DNA of 64,000 nt from Nitrospirota bacterium (GTDB lineage: Bacteria; Nitrospirota; Thermodesulfovibrionia; Thermodesulfovibrionales; Dissulfurispiraceae), in assembly GCA_040752355.1 (NCBI GenBank), contig JBFMHE010000001.1:62001-126000 (forward strand). Reading direction: 5' to 3'. The translations under genes were made by a program, and so were the position numbers. The number at the start of each line of letters is the position of its first letter. Position 1 is the first letter of the stretch. Below are positions 5,138-41,284 of this stretch, one piece after another. The notes under the pieces are model-generated. The model was given only the letters and a program-made list of their open reading frames with translations. It ran no database searches and had not been told where the DNA came from.

Positions 5138-7923
5138 TGGACGATATGGTCACGCTTTTTCATGTGCCGTTGGGATACCGGCATACGACGCAGTTCCTGT
5201 TCAAAAGGGCGATCAGGAGGGGCAGCCATCCCGACTACTCGAGCATCCTCTACCTGGCGCCTACGTCTTTCAAAGCCGACGACGCCCAGAAGATCTTTCA
5301 CGAGCTGCAGGACGGCAAATGCTACGTCCCTCCTGAATGCACCACTATTCCCCGCTTCGCCCGGAGGATGTTTGCGACCTATGGAAAGGAGCGGGTGCTT
5401 TCCCGGGCGCTGGTCCCCTTCGTTCTCTCGCGCCTGTCCGGACCTGAGCGCCTGGAGGGGCCGGCAGAGCAGGCGGGCGCGAAAGGCAAGGGGTTCGGTT
5501 TCTCGCGTCTCTCTGCCGGCTTCATCCGGGACCTGAAGCAGCGATTTCCGGACCACGACAGCGCGGCCCTGCAAGCGCTGTGCGCGGGCATGTTCGCTTC
5601 GCTCGATATACCCGAAGCGGTCACCCGGGTCGTTACCGAGATCATCGGGACCTATGGAGCGTACCGGGAATTCGTCGGGAGCAACGGACTGGTCGATGAA
5701 GACGACCTGCTGGTGCGATGCCCCGGCTACGTAGCGCAGAAGTATGCTGCGCCGGGTGACCGCTGCACGCTGATCCTCGACGGGTTTTATGACCCTTCAG
5801 GAGCGGAGAGGAGTATCATCAAGGCCCTTATTCTGCATGCCGGCGAGGTCCTCGTATCGCTTCCCTCGGAGCCCCCGTTTTCCGACCTGCTCAAGGAGTA
5901 CAGGGATTTCCTGCGCGATACCTCCACGCTCCGCGAGGAGCGTCTCGATAAGGAGGTCCCGGATCGCTCCCAACCGCTGCGCTACTACACTTATGCCGAT
6001 GTCGAGGAGGAGGTGGAGGGCATGGCGAGGAGCATAAAGTCGTCGTTCGTATCGGGAAAGATCAAGCGGCTCGAAGAGATAACAGTGGTCTTCCCCGACC
6101 TGCGGAGCTATGCCCCCATGGTCGACCGCATCTTCAGGCGCTACGGCGTGCCCGCTTCGATTTCGGTACGGAAGAGTCTCGGCGAGATGCGGCCCTTTCT
6201 CGACCTCTTCTGCCTGCTGCGGTCGGTCGCCGAAGGCTATCCGCGACTGCACTTCTCCCAGTTCCTCTCTTCGCCTTACTTTACAGCGCTTCCGGAGACC
6301 ATGAGGGCCTGGATCGCGCCGCTCTCGCTCCAGTCGGGCATCGTAGCAGGAAAAGAGGCGTGGCTCGAATTCATTGCCGAGGGCTCGGAGACGCTCGATA
6401 TGAATCGCGTGCCGGAGCGGGCAGAGATCGAGAAGGGGATGAAGCGGGTGTTCAGAAAACTATCGCCCCTCGAGGAGATCAGAGACGGCGCATCCCTCGC
6501 TCGTTATGCAGAAGTGCTCGGAACGCTCGCCGACGACCTCGGGTTCCCGGGACCGCGTACCGATGCGACGACCAAGGCGCTCTCCGAGGCGTTCAACGAG
6601 ATCCTCGACCAGATCGCGTTCATAGGCGCGCTCACTCCCGGCTCCGTGACCCTGCCCGAGTTCGAGGAGGCGCTGCGTCATCTCCTGAGAACGGCCTTTC
6701 TCGATAGCGAGGAGCAGGGCGTGAGGGTGATAGGCTTCCCCGATGCAGCGGGGCTCTCGCCGCGGTATCTCTATTTCGGCGGTCTTGCCGATGGCGCGCT
6801 GCCCCAACGGCAGGAGATGGACTACCTGCTGCCCGACAGCGCGAAGCGGAGACTGGGACTCATGCACCTCGAGAAGTTCAGCTCCCTCCAGAAGTACCTG
6901 TTTACCTGTCTCGTCAAGAATTGCGGGCGCCACCATCTCTCATACCCGCTCATGGACGGCGATACCCTCTTCCTCCCCTCTTCGTTTCTCTATGGAGGGG
7001 AGGAGCTCAGAGAACGGATCCCCGGGATATTCTCGCAGGAGGAGTACCTGGTCGCCAAGGGAAACGAACCGCTGCTGCGGCAGATGGACGAGATCGAGCT
7101 GCTCCCTGCATTGCTGCGGCTCCCTTCCTCCCTGCGGGTCACCGATGTCGACGCCTACCGTGCCTGCCCCCGGCGGTTCTTCATCGAGAAGATACTCCAG
7201 CTCACTCCTTCGGGCATAAAGGAGTACGAGATCGAGGCAGCCACCCTCGGCACTGTCATCCACAAGATAATGGAACGGCTCATGAAGGAGTCTTTCGGCG
7301 GTCTCGATGAGCTGCATCGGCGGGCAGAGGGTGTTGTGGGGGAGGTGCTGCACGAAAAGAAGATGGGCCTCTACTGGAAAGGCCTCATCAAGGACACGTT
7401 CATCGAGATGCTCCCCGAGCTCTACGATCGTGAGCTCGATATCCGGGGGGAGGGGTATATCTCCTCGGAAGTCGAGAAGAATATCTCGGGCGAACCGGTG
7501 AAGGGCATCAAGCTCCGGGGCAAGATAGACCGCATCGACAGGCTCGGCGACGAGGTGCAGCTCATCGATTACAAGACCGGCACAGCAGGGCTGAACTGTA
7601 CCCAGGCGCTGAGCGGCAACGAGGACCTCCAGCTCTTCCTCTACGCGGCGATCCTGAAGAGCCACGGGTATCATGTGAGCCGCGTCGGCATTTATTCTCT
7701 CAAGGACATAACCGTCAAATGGTGCCCCCCGAAGCGGCGGGGGAGAGGCAAGGGAAAAGAGGAGCCGGGCCGGCATCTTGACGATTATATCAGCGCATCA
7801 TTACAATTTCTCGAGAGCGCGGTGGCCCGGATCAGGAAAGGAGACTTCAGGGCAAAACCCATGAACGATTACGTCTGCTGGAACTGCCACGAATACGCTT
7901 TCTGTCCTTATATACAACAATAA
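5137..7923 (+). CDS. AddB-like PD-(D/E)XK nuclease
   Basis: Large protein (928 residues from ATG 5137; the ATG at 5146 is also possible) resembling AddB, the second subunit of the AddAB double-strand-break resection nuclease. The C-terminal RecB-type nuclease is clear: GTVIHKIMERL, GKIDRID and IDYKTG. It is framed by the four cysteines of the AddB-type 4Fe-4S staple, one in YRACPRRFF (near residue 677) and CWNCHEYAFC near the end. I see no normal Walker A at the N-terminus (GYRHTTQFLF occupies that place), so helicase activity is doubtful. No addA lies nearby. It would act on broken or foreign DNA in the cytoplasm. Confidence 0.8.
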   Translation: MDDMVTLFHVPLGYRHTTQFLFKRAIRRGSHPDYSSILYLAPTSFKADDAQKIFHELQDGKCYVPPECTTIPRFARRMFATYGKERVLSRALVPFVLSRLSGPERLEGPAEQAGAKGKGFGFSRLSAGFIRDLKQRFPDHDSAALQALCAGMFASLDIPEAVTRVVTEIIGTYGAYREFVGSNGLVDEDDLLVRCPGYVAQKYAAPGDRCTLILDGFYDPSGAERSIIKALILHAGEVLVSLPSEPPFSDLLKEYRDFLRDTSTLREERLDKEVPDRSQPLRYYTYADVEEEVEGMARSIKSSFVSGKIKRLEEITVVFPDLRSYAPMVDRIFRRYGVPASISVRKSLGEMRPFLDLFCLLRSVAEGYPRLHFSQFLSSPYFTALPETMRAWIAPLSLQSGIVAGKEAWLEFIAEGSETLDMNRVPERAEIEKGMKRVFRKLSPLEEIRDGASLARYAEVLGTLADDLGFPGPRTDATTKALSEAFNEILDQIAFIGALTPGSVTLPEFEEALRHLLRTAFLDSEEQGVRVIGFPDAAGLSPRYLYFGGLADGALPQRQEMDYLLPDSAKRRLGLMHLEKFSSLQKYLFTCLVKNCGRHHLSYPLMDGDTLFLPSSFLYGGEELRERIPGIFSQEEYLVAKGNEPLLRQMDEIELLPALLRLPSSLRVTDVDAYRACPRRFFIEKILQLTPSGIKEYEIEAATLGTVIHKIMERLMKESFGGLDELHRRAEGVVGEVLHEKKMGLYWKGLIKDTFIEMLPELYDRELDIRGEGYISSEVEKNISGEPVKGIKLRGKIDRIDRLGDEVQLIDYKTGTAGLNCTQALSGNEDLQLFLYAAILKSHGYHVSRVGIYSLKDITVKWCPPKRRGRGKGKEEPGRHLDDYISASLQFLESAVARIRKGDFRAKPMNDYVCWNCHEYAFCPYIQQ

Positions 7924-8936: not shown

Positions 8937-10097
8937 ATGGAAAAAGTAATCCTCCGCCGGACGAGCAGGATCCTTGCCGGACACCTCTGGATATTCTCGA
9001 ATGAGCTCGCGACGAGCCCGAAGCAGTACGAGCCGGGCGCGCTCGCCGAGGTCTACGACGGGAAGGGAGCCTTTTTCGGCATCGGGTACATCAATCCTCA
9101 CTCCCTCATCGCCGTCCGTCTCCTCACGAGGGAGAGAGAGCGGATCGACGCCGGCTTTTTCAGGAGAAAGATCAGGGCAGCCCTGTCCTACCGGGAGCGC
9201 TTCCTGGAGGGGGTGACCTCGTTCCGCGCCCTTTACAGCGAGGGCGATTTTCTTCCGGGGCTGATCGTCGATAAGTTCGGCGACTGTCTCGTCGTGCAGA
9301 TACTCACCCTCGGCATGGAGCAGCTGCGCGAGACCATAGTATCGGTGCTCGACGAGCTCTTTTCTCCCCAGGTGATCGTGCTCAGGAACGACAGCCAGAG
9401 CAGGGCGCTCGAAGGGCTTCCGCTCGAAAAGAGCGTCATCAAAGGGACGCTGGAGGAGCTTCCCCGCATCAGGGAGGGAGAGGTCGTCCTGGAAGTAGAC
9501 CCCCTCGGAGGACAGAAGACCGGCTTTTTCCTCGATCAGCGGGAGAACAGGCTCGGCCTCGCCGTGCTGGCGAAGGAGGGCAGGGCGATCGATCTCTTCT
9601 GTTATTCCGGCGGCTGGGGGCTGCAGTTGGCCCGCAAAGGGCTGGCGGTAACGTTTGTTGATGACTCTGAAGCGGCACTGCAACAGGCCCGGAAGAATGC
9701 GCGACTTACTAATGTCGATCATCAATGCACTTTCATCAAGGCCGACGTCTTCACCCTCCTCAAACAGGAAGCGGCGGCGGGGAATACCTATGAGGTGGTC
9801 GTCCTCGACCCGCCCGCCTTCGTCAAGAGCAGGGCGAAGATAAAGGAGGCGGCGCGGGGGTACCGGGAGATCAATGCCCTTGCCATGGGGATTGTCAGCG
9901 AAGGGGGTGTGCTGGCTACCTCATCGTGCTCGTATCATATTGATAAAGAGATGTTTCTGGAGATACTCCGCGATGCCGCCCGTGACGCGCACCGCTCGCC
10001 GCGCCTTCTCGAATACTGTTCCCAGGCCAAGGACCACCCCGTACTTCTGTCGGTGCCCGAGACCGAATACCTCAAATGCGCCTTCCTCGAACTGTGA
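8937..10097 (+). CDS. Class I SAM-dependent rRNA cytosine methyltransferase, RlmI-like
   Basis: PUA domain at the N-terminus (RTSRILAGHLWIFSNEL and following), then a Rossmann methyltransferase domain with motif I LFCYSGGWGLQLA and the catalytic motif DPPAFVKS, plus SSCSYH near the end. 386 residues fits the RlmI/YccW family, which methylates 23S rRNA at C5 of a cytosine. The exact target nucleotide cannot be assigned. It follows the patatin gene closely; the next downstream element is the terminator at 10204. Confidence 0.9.
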   Translation: MEKVILRRTSRILAGHLWIFSNELATSPKQYEPGALAEVYDGKGAFFGIGYINPHSLIAVRLLTRERERIDAGFFRRKIRAALSYRERFLEGVTSFRALYSEGDFLPGLIVDKFGDCLVVQILTLGMEQLRETIVSVLDELFSPQVIVLRNDSQSRALEGLPLEKSVIKGTLEELPRIREGEVVLEVDPLGGQKTGFFLDQRENRLGLAVLAKEGRAIDLFCYSGGWGLQLARKGLAVTFVDDSEAALQQARKNARLTNVDHQCTFIKADVFTLLKQEAAAGNTYEVVVLDPPAFVKSRAKIKEAARGYREINALAMGIVSEGGVLATSSCSYHIDKEMFLEILRDAARDAHRSPRLLEYCSQAKDHPVLLSVPETEYLKCAFLEL

Positions 10098-10141
10098 CTT
10101 TAACCTAAATTTACAATCATAAAAAAACTTAAAAATTTCTC

Positions 10142-10170
10142 TTGACATGCATCCCTGGTTCTGATATTCT
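10142..10170 (+). promoter_or_regulatory. Near-consensus sigma-70 promoter of an orphan transcript
   Basis: TTGACA (10142-10147), 17-nt spacer, TATTCT (10165-10170). The only thing downstream on this strand is a terminator 34 bp further on; the next gene is convergent. Confidence 0.75.
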
Positions 10171-10176
10171 GAGAGC

Positions 10177-10245
10177 TAAGAAGCGCCTCGTTACCTCCCC
10201 TAAGCTGCTGCCCCCATCCCACGGGCAGCAGCACTTTTATTTTTG
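10177..10245 (+). ncRNA. Candidate small RNA with C-rich single-stranded segment
   Basis: A predicted start near 10177 and the terminator ending near 10245 define a transcript of about 69 nt with no ORF. Its 5' half is mostly unpaired and carries GUUACCUCCCCUAAG, which is complementary to Shine-Dalgarno sequences. The terminator loop CCAUCCCAC is also C-rich. This layout (strong promoter, short C-rich seed region, terminator hairpin) is that of C-rich trans-acting sRNAs that block ribosome binding. No family is recognised and the targets are unknown. Confidence 0.55.
10204..10245 (+). terminator. Intrinsic terminator
   Basis: GCTGCTGCCC (10204-10213) pairs perfectly with GGGCAGCAGC (10223-10232), followed by ACTTTTATTTTT. 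It ends the candidate sRNA and probably also rlmI-like read-through. Confidence 0.85.
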
Positions 10246-10251
10246 GCCCAT

Positions 10252-10368
10252 TAGCAAACAGCTATCAGCAAAATAATACAGCAATCAGCTTTCAGCACAC
10301 AACAACAGCTAAAGGCATTCCCTTCAAATATCATGTCCTTACTGACGGCTGATTGCTGATGGCTTATT
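10252..10368 (+). repeat. Mirrored heptamer-repeat element
   Basis: Left part: CAGCTAT CAGCAAA ... CAGCAAT CAGCTTT CAGCACA. Right part: TGACGGC TGATTGC TGATGGC TTATTTC, complementary in kind to the left (CAGCAATCAGC against GCTGATTGCTG). It runs to the end of the DUF362 gene. Confidence 0.6.
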
Positions 10369-11485
10369 TCAACTCGATCATCTCATAGGTTCTGCTGCCC
10401 ATGCCGAGCCGCTCCGCCTCTTCGACCTGCAGGAGGTATTTCTTTTTGTGCAACCCTAAAAGGATATCGTCCCCCTCCGCGATACCCTGGTCCTCGGCGA
10501 GCGACGAGGGGAGGGGCTTTTCCCTGAGCAGCAGGTCGATGGATGCCTGTTCGACCGCGACGATATCGTCCGAGAGGAGGATGCCGATATCCTGGATGAC
10601 CGGCACTTCGGCAGCGGGCATGCAGTCGCATTCGGGCTGGATCTCGGTAAGGAAATTGAGATAGATGACCTTCTTTGGGGTAAAGGTGCTCAGGACCGCT
10701 TTTGCCGCCTCCGCGAGCGATCTCATGAAGAGCTCGTCGTCGCCGGGGAGAACGAGAGCGCCTTCGGGACAGACCCGCGTGCAGCGTCCGCACCGCCAGC
10801 ACCGCTCGTTGTTATAGGTGAACTTCTCCCCGGCCAGGTCGATGCAGTCGAGCGGGCAGACCTCCGCGCATTGGTAGCAGAGGGCGCACTTCTCTTCGTC
10901 CCATACGAAGCCGCCTTCGCCGATGGCGTGCATCGCCCCGCGGCCGCACTTCCAGCCGCACTGCCGGTGGCTGCCGCTGACGCCGCCCATGGCGAGGTTC
11001 TTTATGGCGCCCGCATATCCTGCGTTGATGTGCCCCTTGACGTGGGAGCAGACGACCATGGCGGATGCGTCATGGACTGCCGACGCCACCGCGACTTCGC
11101 CGAGGATCTCGCCTGCTCTGACGATGATATTGTCGTTCCCGTACAGGCCGTCGGCGAGTATCACCGGCGCGCCGACCGAGAGGTGGTTGATGCCGTTGAT
11201 GTTTGCGACCTCGAGGTAATCGAGGCCGCGGATGCGCACGGTGTCGGTCACGAAGGGCTTGGCGCCTGCCGCTTTCACGGCATCGACGACCTTGCGAAGG
11301 AATACGGGCCTCACGATCCGGTGTGCGCCCTCGGAGCCGAAGTGCGTCTTTACCGCGACCCACTCCTTCTCTCCGAAATAGGACGTGAGGGCTATCTCGC
11401 CCAGGAGCCGTTCGAGCTTCCCCGGCATGCTGTCATCGTACTTCCACTTCTTCACCCGCGCCGACGCAAAATAGACCCTTGCCAT
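10364..11485 (-). CDS. DUF362 protein with 2[4Fe-4S] ferredoxin domain
   Basis: DUF362-family protein, 373 residues. The N-terminal DUF362 domain includes KGHINAGYAGAIKNLAMGG; two ferredoxin motifs follow (CALCYQCAEVCPLDC and CWRCGRCTRVCPEGA). No signal peptide is visible, so it should be a cytoplasmic iron-sulfur protein. The reaction is unknown; family members are widespread in anaerobes and are thought to take part in electron transfer or maturation. It stands alone between two oppositely oriented genes. Confidence 0.88.
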   Translation of the reverse strand: MARVYFASARVKKWKYDDSMPGKLERLLGEIALTSYFGEKEWVAVKTHFGSEGAHRIVRPVFLRKVVDAVKAAGAKPFVTDTVRIRGLDYLEVANINGINHLSVGAPVILADGLYGNDNIIVRAGEILGEVAVASAVHDASAMVVCSHVKGHINAGYAGAIKNLAMGGVSGSHRQCGWKCGRGAMHAIGEGGFVWDEEKCALCYQCAEVCPLDCIDLAGEKFTYNNERCWRCGRCTRVCPEGALVLPGDDELFMRSLAEAAKAVLSTFTPKKVIYLNFLTEIQPECDCMPAAEVPVIQDIGILLSDDIVAVEQASIDLLLREKPLPSSLAEDQGIAEGDDILLGLHKKKYLLQVEEAERLGMGSRTYEMIELK

Positions 11486-11658
11486 GGTGCACCTCGCTAT
11501 GAAAGTTGCCGACCCCGGGGTTCGGCTTTATACTTAAATGAGGGAAGAGCTCTTCTCATGCTTATGAATGCCTCTCTGCTCGCCGCTCCATAAATACTAT
11601 ATAATATATTGTATCGGAAGTTTAAATGCTCGTCGTATCGGGAGAAATGGAGTGCTGC

Positions 11659-14600
11659 ATGGTGAACAAGCTGCTGCTGTTTTCGCATATCGTTGCGGTC
11701 GTCCTGCTCTTCGCGTCCGGCGCTGCCGGCGCAGCGCAGGGGACCGTGCCCCGGGCGCCTGAATCGCATCCGGAGTATACCTTGCGGGTCTCGTTCGATA
11801 TCCCGGAGTCGAAGCTCAGGGGCGCCGCCGAGCTGGCGGTGGGGGCCGGGCAGCAGGTCATCCTGCATACCGGCGCGCTCACGATAACCGGGCTCTCTCT
11901 CGATCAGGAGAAGATGGACGGCGCGGCGAAGGAGGGAGTCCTCACGCTTACCGCTCCCCGCAGCGGCGTGCTGCGCATCATGTACGAGGGGACGTTCAAA
12001 GAGAGACCTGTCGAGACCGCCAGCTACGGGGTGGTGCAGAGCACGATCAGCGGGGAGGGGATTTCGCTCACCGGCGCATGGTATCCGCAGCCGGAGGGTC
12101 TGTACGTCTACCGGCTCACGGCTATCCTGCCGCACGGGTATACGGCCCTGTCCGAGGCAGAGCGCATAACGACCGCTGCACGGGACGGCGCTGTCGAGAC
12201 CGCTTTCGACTTTCCCTATCCGGTCGACGGCATAAGCCTTGTCGCCTCGAAGCGGTACGAGGTGACCGAAGATCGCTATAAAGGGGTAAGGCTTTACGCC
12301 TATTTTTTCCCCGAGGAGCGCGAGCTCGCGAAGCGCTATATCGAGTTCACGAAGAACTACCTCGCGCGGTACGAGGAGCTGCTCGGACCGTTTCCCTACA
12401 AGCGTTTCGCTGTTGTCGAGAACTTCCTTCCGACGGGGTACTCGATGCCGACCTTTACGCTCCTCGGCCGCGATGTCGTCAAGCTGCCCTTCATCGTCGA
12501 GACCTCGCTGGGGCACGAGATCCTGCACCAGTGGTTCGGCAATTATGTCTACATCGCTTTTGATAAAGGCAATTGGGCGGAAGGGCTGACCACCTACCTT
12601 GCCGATCACGCCTTCGAGGAAGGGAAGGGAAAGGGCGCGGACTACCGCAAGCAGCTCCTCATCGACTATGCGAGCTACGTCGATGAGGAGAATGAAGTTC
12701 CTCTCAAGGAGTTCAGGGGGCGGTCCGATTTCGCTTCAAAGGCGATCGGGTACGGCAAGGCCGCACTGGTATTCCATATGCTGAAACGCGAGCTCGGGGA
12801 GGAGGTCTTTTACCGGTCGCTCAGGGAGCTCATCGCCGAAAAGGCCTTTGCGCGCGCATCGTGGGACGATATTCGACGCGTCTTCGAGAGGGGCTATGAG
12901 GGAGAGCTCGACCGGTTTTTCGAAGAGTGGGTCGAGACGCCCGGCCTGCCGAGGCTCGAGGCGCGGACGTCCGGGGTAAAGCAGCGCGGTGACAAGTACG
13001 AGGTCACGGTCACGGTCGGACAGGAGAACGGGCGGAAGGGCGCGCCCTACACGCTCGATGTCCCCGTCTTCTTTCATTACCCCGACGGATCGGTAGAGGA
13101 AGAGCTGATCGGCATCGACAGCCAGAAAGAGACTGCTGCCTTTACGCTCGACCGCATGCCGGAACGGATCGTCATGGACGAGCGGTACGATCTCGCGCGT
13201 GCGCTTACCCCGGAAGAGACGCCTCCCGTGATCGCCCGTCTCATCGGCGCCGGGAAGCCGCTGATCGTCCTTCCCGAAGACGGGGCGGAGCGGTATGCCC
13301 CTGTCATCGAGCACTTCAGGGCGGAGGGAGGGATCGAGAAGAAGGCGGCGGAACTGAAAGATGCGGAGGTCAAGAGGTCGACGCTCGTGGTGCTCGGCAG
13401 CGAGAGTCCCCTGGTACAGCGGCTCTTCGGCAAAATGGAGCCTGCGGGAGGCTTTACGGTTTCGGTCAGGGAGAACCCGTGGAATGAACAGCAGGTGATC
13501 GGCATTTTCGATGCAACCTCCCGGGACGAAGTCGAGGCCGGCTTCAGGAAGGTGTTTCATTACGGCAAGTACAGTATGCTCGCGTTCGATAAGGGGAAGA
13601 ATATCGCCAAACGTATCGAGGAGTCGGCGCAGGGCATCGCGGTGTGGGAGAGAGAACAGACGACCGCTGTTGCCGTGGATGCGATCAGAACGCTTCCCGC
13701 GGTCATCGACGCGGTCGCAGGGAAAAAGATCGTCTATGTCGGTGAATACCATGACCGTTTCGCCCACCACCAGGTCCAGCTCGAGATCATCAAAGGGCTC
13801 TATGAGAGGAATAAGAAGCTCGCTATCGGGATGGAGATGTTCCAGCGGCCCTACCAGAAGGCGCTCGACGAATTCATCGCCGGTACGATCGATGAGCGGG
13901 AGTTCCTCAAAAAATCCGAGTACTTCAAGCGGTGGAGCTTCGACTACAACCTGTACCGGCCGATCCTCTCCTTTGCCCGGGAGAAGGGGATACCGGTCGT
14001 CGCCCTGAATATCCAGCGCGAGCTTACCGAAAAAGTATCGAAGGGAGGACTGGATGCGCTGAGCGACGAAGAGAGGAAAGCGGTCCCCGAGCGGTTCGAC
14101 TTTTCCGATGAGGAATATCGCGAGCGCCTGGAGGCGGCCTTCAGAATGCACGGGCACGGCGGCAATGAAAGGAGCTTCGACTATTTTTACCAGTCCCAGG
14201 TCCTCTGGGACGAGACCATGGCCGCGTCCATCGACGAGTTCTTCAGGAGCAACCGCGATTTCGAGCAGGAGGGCCGGATGGTGGTTATCGCCGGCAGCGG
14301 GCATCTCGCCCACGGGTCGGGCATCCCGAAGCGGACCTTCAGGAGAAACGGGTATCCCTATGCAATCGTTCTCAACGACACGGAGGTCGAGAAAGGCATT
14401 GCCGATTACCTCGTCTTCCCTGCACGTCTCGAAGCAGTGCCGGCGCCGAAGATCATGGCTACCCTCGAGGAAGAGCAGGGGAGAGTAAGTATAAAGGCTT
14501 TCCCGGAGCAGAGCGTCTCCCAAGAGGCGGGGCTCAGGGTCGGCGACCGGATCGCCGCCCTCGACGGCATTCCGGTGAGCTCGGTGGACGACATCAGGAT

Positions 14601-14703
14601 ACACCTTCTCTACAAGAAGAAGGGAGAGCCGCTGAAGGTTACGGTGGTGCGGAAGCGGTTCCTCAGGGGAGACAGGCTCATGGAGTTTACGGTAATGCTC
14701 TGA
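11659..14703 (+). CDS. Exported M1-type metallopeptidase / ChaN-like / PDZ fusion
   Basis: Three-domain exported protein of 1014 residues. I choose ATG 11659 (GGAG 6 nt upstream) because it starts a clean signal peptide. The first half is a gluzincin peptidase: GHEILHQWFG with the third zinc ligand in NWAEGL, but the GAMEN-type exopeptidase motif is replaced (YSMPTFTLLG), so it may not be a classical aminopeptidase. The middle is a ChaN/DUF399 domain (YVGEYHDRFAHH, GMEMFQRPYQ, AGSGHLAHGSG), known for heme or iron binding. The C-terminus is a PDZ domain (AGLRVGDRIAALDG). It sits next to degP, which suggests envelope protein turnover, possibly of heme proteins. Confidence 0.87.
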   Translation: MVNKLLLFSHIVAVVLLFASGAAGAAQGTVPRAPESHPEYTLRVSFDIPESKLRGAAELAVGAGQQVILHTGALTITGLSLDQEKMDGAAKEGVLTLTAPRSGVLRIMYEGTFKERPVETASYGVVQSTISGEGISLTGAWYPQPEGLYVYRLTAILPHGYTALSEAERITTAARDGAVETAFDFPYPVDGISLVASKRYEVTEDRYKGVRLYAYFFPEERELAKRYIEFTKNYLARYEELLGPFPYKRFAVVENFLPTGYSMPTFTLLGRDVVKLPFIVETSLGHEILHQWFGNYVYIAFDKGNWAEGLTTYLADHAFEEGKGKGADYRKQLLIDYASYVDEENEVPLKEFRGRSDFASKAIGYGKAALVFHMLKRELGEEVFYRSLRELIAEKAFARASWDDIRRVFERGYEGELDRFFEEWVETPGLPRLEARTSGVKQRGDKYEVTVTVGQENGRKGAPYTLDVPVFFHYPDGSVEEELIGIDSQKETAAFTLDRMPERIVMDERYDLARALTPEETPPVIARLIGAGKPLIVLPEDGAERYAPVIEHFRAEGGIEKKAAELKDAEVKRSTLVVLGSESPLVQRLFGKMEPAGGFTVSVRENPWNEQQVIGIFDATSRDEVEAGFRKVFHYGKYSMLAFDKGKNIAKRIEESAQGIAVWEREQTTAVAVDAIRTLPAVIDAVAGKKIVYVGEYHDRFAHHQVQLEIIKGLYERNKKLAIGMEMFQRPYQKALDEFIAGTIDEREFLKKSEYFKRWSFDYNLYRPILSFAREKGIPVVALNIQRELTEKVSKGGLDALSDEERKAVPERFDFSDEEYRERLEAAFRMHGHGGNERSFDYFYQSQVLWDETMAASIDEFFRSNRDFEQEGRMVVIAGSGHLAHGSGIPKRTFRRNGYPYAIVLNDTEVEKGIADYLVFPARLEAVPAPKIMATLEEEQGRVSIKAFPEQSVSQEAGLRVGDRIAALDGIPVSSVDDIRIHLLYKKKGEPLKVTVVRKRFLRGDRLMEFTVML

Positions 14704-41060: not shown

Positions 41061-41216
41061 CTGTTGGGAAGTGCTAAGGGTTTGTTCCTTCTGCTGTTTC
41101 TTGCGCTGTATACCTGCACCGCCGCTCCGTCGCAGCCCCGCAGTACCGATGTGTTCCAGGAACTGGTCGTGACAGCAAAACGACAGAATGTTTCCGAAAA
41201 GGTAAACTCTGGGTAA
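41061..41216 (+). pseudogene. Remnant of a TonB-dependent receptor N-terminus
   Basis: In one frame the region reads like a signal sequence (KGLFLLLFLALYTCTAAP) followed by FQELVVTAKRQNVSEKV, the typical plug start of TonB receptors, and then stops at TAA within the riboswitch 5' part. No ATG or ribosome site is seen and nothing receptor-like follows. I read it as a decayed fragment; chance similarity is possible. Confidence 0.4.
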
Positions 41217-41284
41217 CCAGAGGGCACAAAGCTACGGGTCCTGTTCTTGAAAAGAAGGGGACAGCCGGGTTGCCGAAGAACAGG
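41188..41284 (+). promoter_or_regulatory. GEMM-I (cyclic-di-GMP-I class) riboswitch
   Basis: AGGUAAAC, then a P2 hairpin CUCUGG-GUAA-CCAGAG with a GNRA loop, the hallmark GGCACAAAGCUACGGGUCC, a P3 hairpin (GUCC..UUCUU/AAGAA..GGAC) and GACAGCCGGGUUGCCGAAG. These conserved blocks and their order match GEMM-I aptamers. The ligand could be c-di-GMP or 3',3'-cGAMP; the deciding base cannot be placed safely by eye. Downstream on this strand are a weak terminator and an exporter gene. Confidence 0.85.

Follow-up and report, generated by a model that had tools for sequence, protein, structure and literature searches.

What is encoded where a promoter and a terminator lie close together on the plus strand of a Nitrospirota contig and enclose no reading frame? 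The question is raised by positions 10142–10245 of the window, by which we mean the whole 64,000-nucleotide stretch of DNA that was analysed. The original prediction for this locus was a C-rich small RNA acting in trans as a translational repressor. The locus is almost certainly a real and new sRNA gene with a predicted transcript, and belongs to a family spread over the order Thermodesulfovibrionales. The sRNA family is new; its functional kind is already known.

Promoter, predicted transcript and terminator at the locus

The near-consensus promoter of the original prediction was found as described (TTGACA-17-TATTCT with a TG extension), as was the perfect 10-bp terminator, which has a C-rich 9-nt loop and is followed by a T-rich tract reaching 10244. 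The stretch said to be free of ORFs, about 67 nt long, indeed has none, and no same-strand gene lies downstream, since the next gene (DUF362/4Fe-4S) is convergent on the minus strand. The features of the locus and its two neighbours are as follows.

8937–10097 (+): RlmI-like gene (PUA and SAM methyltransferase), upstream neighbour, outside the sRNA unit
10097–10141 (+): AT-rich stretch upstream of the −35 box, putatively UP-element-like, from column statistics of 98 copies
10142–10147 (+): −35 box TTGACA, read directly, exact in 95/98 aligned copies
10165–10170 (+): −10 box TATTCT preceded by TG, 17-nt spacer to the −35 box, 10/12 promoter match
10178–10244 (+): predicted sRNA of about 67 nt, start placed at about 10177/10178, edges equal to those of the conserved block
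10187–10200 (+): unpaired conserved seed CUCGUUACCUCCCC, CUCCC essentially invariant in 98 copies
10193–10200 (+): anti-Shine-Dalgarno-like ACCUCCCC inside the seed, unpaired in the fold
10204–10232 (+): intrinsic terminator hairpin, perfect 10-bp stem, all 10 pairs with compensatory changes
10204–10213 and 10223–10232 (+): terminator stem arms GCTGCTGCCC and GGGCAGCAGC, read directly
10214–10222 (+): terminator loop CCATCCCAC, C-rich, 9 nt
10235–10244 (+): T-rich tract UUUUAUUUUU, read directly and seen in relatives, possible Hfq-binding tail
10364–11485 (−): DUF362/4Fe-4S protein gene, convergent neighbour, outside the sRNA unit

The window copy folds with a minimum free energy of −22 kcal/mol (z −3.5), and ACCTCCCC at 10193–10200 is left unpaired. 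In a 5-kb consensus scan, promoter-like sites of equal quality numbered 3 against 1.2 expected by chance; the limit that the scan sets on terminator loops excludes the 9-nt loop of the locus terminator. Promoter-like sites are thus not rare by chance, and the significance of the unit rests on its conservation in relatives rather than on the consensus scan. A minus-strand reading, in which GGGGAGGTAACGAG resembles a ribosome-binding site (RBS), was rejected: it is on the plus strand that the promoter and the T tract show conservation, and on the other strand GGGGAGGTAACGAG is not followed by a start codon.

The RNA had been said to have no recognised family, and this still holds: a search with the Rfam 15 covariance models at gathering score gave no match at 10142–10245, only chance-level similarities (E 2–8.5). 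The sole Rfam match in the window is a c-di-GMP-I-GGC riboswitch (RF03167, 67.4 bits) at 41192–41278 on the plus strand. Literature searches with the core sequence returned unrelated work only, and those on small RNAs of this Nitrospirota order nothing relevant.

Distribution and conservation among relatives

Of 31 same-family genomes searched with BLAST, most contain a strong match, the best outside the window's own genome having an E value of 2e-26. Several of these matches span only query positions 44/45 to 108/109, which correspond to 10178/10179–10242/10243 of the window. These are the ends of the predicted transcript; therefore, the conserved block starts at the predicted start and stops at the T tract. 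Across 84,980 species, a 23-base pattern matched 37 contigs, of which 35 are labelled Nitrospirota, and the other two ('uncultured bacterium') are identical in sequence to copies from the window's own family. With BLAST and a covariance model (R1) built from 21 copies, the sRNA was found in 124 of the 230 genomes of the class, 123 of them within the one order, and almost always as a single copy per genome. Among 395 sampled Nitrospirota genomes the covariance model gave no match outside the order, except for the class genome already known (G192). Plasmid and phage searches returned no sRNA matches, and a mobile element was rejected on this ground.

A lax search of 40 model-negative genomes with a second, broader covariance model (R2) found weak matches alone, with E values of 0.03 or above; the best of them covers the terminator part only. 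Absence from these genomes therefore looks real rather than the outcome of gradual divergence. Extra weak matches also occur in several genomes of one genus (G170 C37 and C52; G171 C171 and C5; G168 C39, C25 and C23), some of them near contig ends, as expected of repeats. The one such match that was read, at L197:2001-2068 (−), is a copy of the core (CTTGTTACCTCCCCTAAGGAG) that has no promoter and is followed by a different terminator; L197 has no Rfam match.

Loss of the promoter and the C-rich core in close relatives had been named at the outset as evidence against the gene; both are conserved across the order. The commonest promoter spacer is 17 nt (61/98 copies). Upstream of the −35 box the 98 copies share two loosely conserved AT-rich blocks, one with the consensus CTAAA-TTA-AATT and one, AAAATTTTTTC, adjoining the −35 box, both absent where coding sequence abuts. 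A near-palindromic AT-rich motif (CTAAAATTATAATTTATAG-like) was also observed in these copies about 20–37 nt before the −35 box (about 10097–10141 in the window), and may represent phased A-tracts, a UP element or the site of an activator. The RNA would begin a few nucleotides past the −10 box. When 97 copies are compared in pairs, identity is 0.81–0.93 in the core vs 0.30–0.38 upstream. The most conserved part of the RNA is its 5′ half, with the consensus AAGCGCCUCGUUACCUCCCCUAA, inside which CUCCC hardly ever varies; family-specific variants include GUU-CCUCCCC in f3 and GUUAUCUCCCC in f11.

The terminator stem shows double compensatory changes in 10/10 pairs, with 99.7% of cells paired. Its covariation score is 0.336 vs 0.187 in shuffles, none of 500 of which reach that value; the alignment was fitted to the model, which favours structure, but the score of the slid control is nonetheless far lower (at most 0.174). 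The anchor proposed for a covariation search in relatives, downstream of the RlmI-like gene, proved too narrow, rlmI being one of several upstream neighbours.

Neighbouring genes and co-occurrence with Hfq

In relatives, the genes upstream of the sRNA include an apparent argJ, rlmI, a Crp-sized regulator and others, on either strand (identities other than rlmI and DUF362 were read from sequence). DUF362 is the most frequent downstream neighbour and is convergent, though not universal; unrelated genes, some on the same strand, are found there too. As the unit persists while the flanking genes vary, it is an autonomous transcription unit, neither a leader nor a 3′ UTR. Promoter and intrinsic terminator are conserved with the RNA irrespective of its neighbours, as expected of an autonomous intergenic sRNA gene. 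The variation among downstream genes rules out a leader of the downstream gene. Further downstream, at 11626–14703 (+), the window encodes a 1025-aa protein with M1 peptidase, ChaN/Tiki haem-binding and PDZ domains.

Three other explanations were weighed. That the locus is no more than the end of the upstream gene, its 3′ UTR and terminator, would agree with its position in the window, 45–80 nt past rlmI on the same strand. However, the unit has a conserved promoter of its own, the gene upstream varies among the copies and frequently has the opposite orientation, and conservation of the core exceeds what termination needs, making this explanation highly improbable. Antisense action or interference in cis, directed against the convergent DUF362 gene, is hardly better placed. 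Convergent neighbours are most commonly DUF362 genes, often at most 5 nt away, and for the window species the RNA can pair with the DUF362 RBS at −19.4 kcal/mol; against this, many copies are followed by a different gene, which in some cases lies on the same strand, the pairing is not conserved in relatives (mean −12.2 kcal/mol), and plain antisense overlap would not preserve this particular sequence. We consider such a cis role very unlikely, and DUF362 was also rejected as a target, since relatives lack the good pairing seen in the window species. The chance that the transcript is the mRNA of a very small protein is negligible. Short ORFs exist in a few copies, but one of at least 8 aa is present in only 7/98, no start codon or ORF is conserved, and the window copy has no AUG; the paucity of ORFs among the copies indicates that the sRNA is non-coding.

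Hfq is encoded in the window's own genome. Across the order it was found in 107 of the 123 genomes bearing the sRNA vs 21 of the 53 without it, leaving 16 with the RNA only and 32 with neither (Fisher p 4e-10). The association weakens to p 0.007 when two double-negative clades are collapsed, and to p 0.018 when incomplete genomes are left out. Co-occurrence is therefore suggestive of an Hfq-linked RNA, not of a strict link. Strict Hfq dependence is not supported; three near-complete genomes (G059, G083, G099) have the sRNA and no detected Hfq. Both Hfq and sRNA are missing from the small, near-complete genomes of family f10 (G039, G051, G127 and others). Two close Hfq genes of equal score were seen in one genome (G002:C12:5909-6094 and 6746-6931), nearly all relatives having one.

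Predicted pairing at ribosome-binding sites and its alternatives

The original prediction held that the C-rich unpaired ACCUCCCC is complementary to RBSs. Pairing was compared between −30..+8 windows and coding windows in 458 kb of the window's own genome (13%), with 317 crude gene predictions. The 5′ 27 nt favour RBS windows over CDS windows by −2.84 kcal/mol vs −1.15 (sd 0.69) for shuffled seeds, only 1 of 200 of which is as low. In the 13% of one genome sampled, the complementarity of the seed to RBSs thus goes beyond chance, which fits an anti-Shine-Dalgarno seed. GGGGAGG-type sites occur in 6/317 RBSs of the same 458 kb vs 96/317 for GGAGG. With GGGGAGG-type RBSs a minority, a seed of CCUCCCC would act selectively and not on RBSs in general.

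Target prediction against 5′ UTRs, also proposed at the outset, yielded this preference but no recurring target. A pattern search for long-complementarity sites showed no clear excess over a reversed-pattern control, and two other pattern counts gave a modest excess of complementary sites that a general Shine-Dalgarno signal could explain. No orthologous target recurring between genera was found in the pattern searches; the candidate genes differ by genus. The striking RBS matches in the window's genome lie before genes for an MtrB/PioB porin, a multihaem cytochrome, CheW and a Fur-family protein, and those elsewhere before AprB (APS reductase) in G023 and, with 13–14 nt matching perfectly, before the gene of a secreted protein in G022. 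The genes that follow the most striking sites serve respiration and the envelope. All are to be taken as leads only, because the complement of the core looks like a strong RBS, whichever gene that RBS serves.

The layout of the RNA has precedents. Hfq-dependent enterobacterial sRNAs such as RybB and MicA have a conserved single-stranded 5′ seed, a terminal hairpin and a U tail. The present RNA is alike in these respects; its sequence is unrelated, and its targets and Hfq dependence are only predicted. RsaE uses single-stranded C-rich motifs to bind G-rich RBSs and inhibit translation (PMC6435200), and the same C-rich single strand facing G-rich RBSs is the likeness we infer to RsaE/RoxS of Firmicutes. 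However, RsaE has two stem-loops, several C-rich motifs and 5′ processing, whereas the present RNA is shorter, differs in sequence, has one strong hairpin and does not match the RsaE Rfam model, which places it outside that family. NfeR1 (cuckoo/alpha-r14) of alphaproteobacteria carries an ultraconserved unpaired anti-Shine-Dalgarno motif, CCUCCUCCC, which silences mRNAs by pairing at their translation initiation regions, and is present in the unpaired region of each of its three hairpins (PMC10746234). An unpaired anti-Shine-Dalgarno motif is common to both and the present RNA would act likewise, but in place of three motif hairpins it has a single strong hairpin, and CCUCGUUACCUCCCC is its one main motif, in the 5′ part; it therefore does not belong with cuckoo/alpha-r14. 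Moreover, cuckoo/alpha-r14 is alphaproteobacterial, and the present RNA, which has no Rfam match, was found only in Nitrospirota.

Gene architecture, conservation, selection at the RNA level on the hairpin, autonomy and RBS-preferring complementarity are all supported computationally. The RNA probably acts in trans and represses mRNAs, its anti-Shine-Dalgarno seed pairing at their RBSs. An RNA of about 67 nt would be transcribed from the stand-alone gene's own sigma-70 promoter and end at the terminator that belongs to the gene. The 5′ half of the RNA, GAAGCGCCUCGUUACCUCCCCUAA, is exposed and would present the seed ACCUCCCC, which would pair with the G-rich RBSs of several mRNAs and block ribosome loading, probably assisted by Hfq at the U-rich 3′ end. 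The translational repressor originally proposed thus gains from the RBS-preferring core and the encoded Hfq, while a conserved target did not emerge and the repressor step is one that we infer.

Counting against an anti-Shine-Dalgarno repressor is the length of the conserved stretch, about 20 nt, which is more than such a seed alone requires. Two other readings build on this 5′ end. A real RNA might act mainly as a binder of protein or ribosome, a decoy or sponge working through the invariant C-rich single strand instead of mRNA pairing. About 20 nt are near-invariant over the whole order, yet a conserved mRNA target was not found, and ACCUCC resembles the 16S 3′ end; however, the seed favours RBS regions, the RNA co-occurs partially with Hfq, and a single copy with one binding motif is unlike multi-site sponges such as CsrB. 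We regard such a binder as rather unlikely. More doubtful still is an order-wide core regulator, whose near-invariant 20-nt 5′ end would mimic the anti-Shine-Dalgarno tail of 16S rRNA and tune a broad class of mRNAs, or have a single partner, ribosomal or protein, instead of repressing a few targets.

A base-pairing sRNA from this mostly uncultured Nitrospirota order had not been described in the databases and literature searched. The RNA family defined here is new; it comes with a covariance model, its start and end are predicted, and its seed can be tested. Moreover, the genera that have lost the RNA, set beside sister genera that retain it, constitute a natural experiment.
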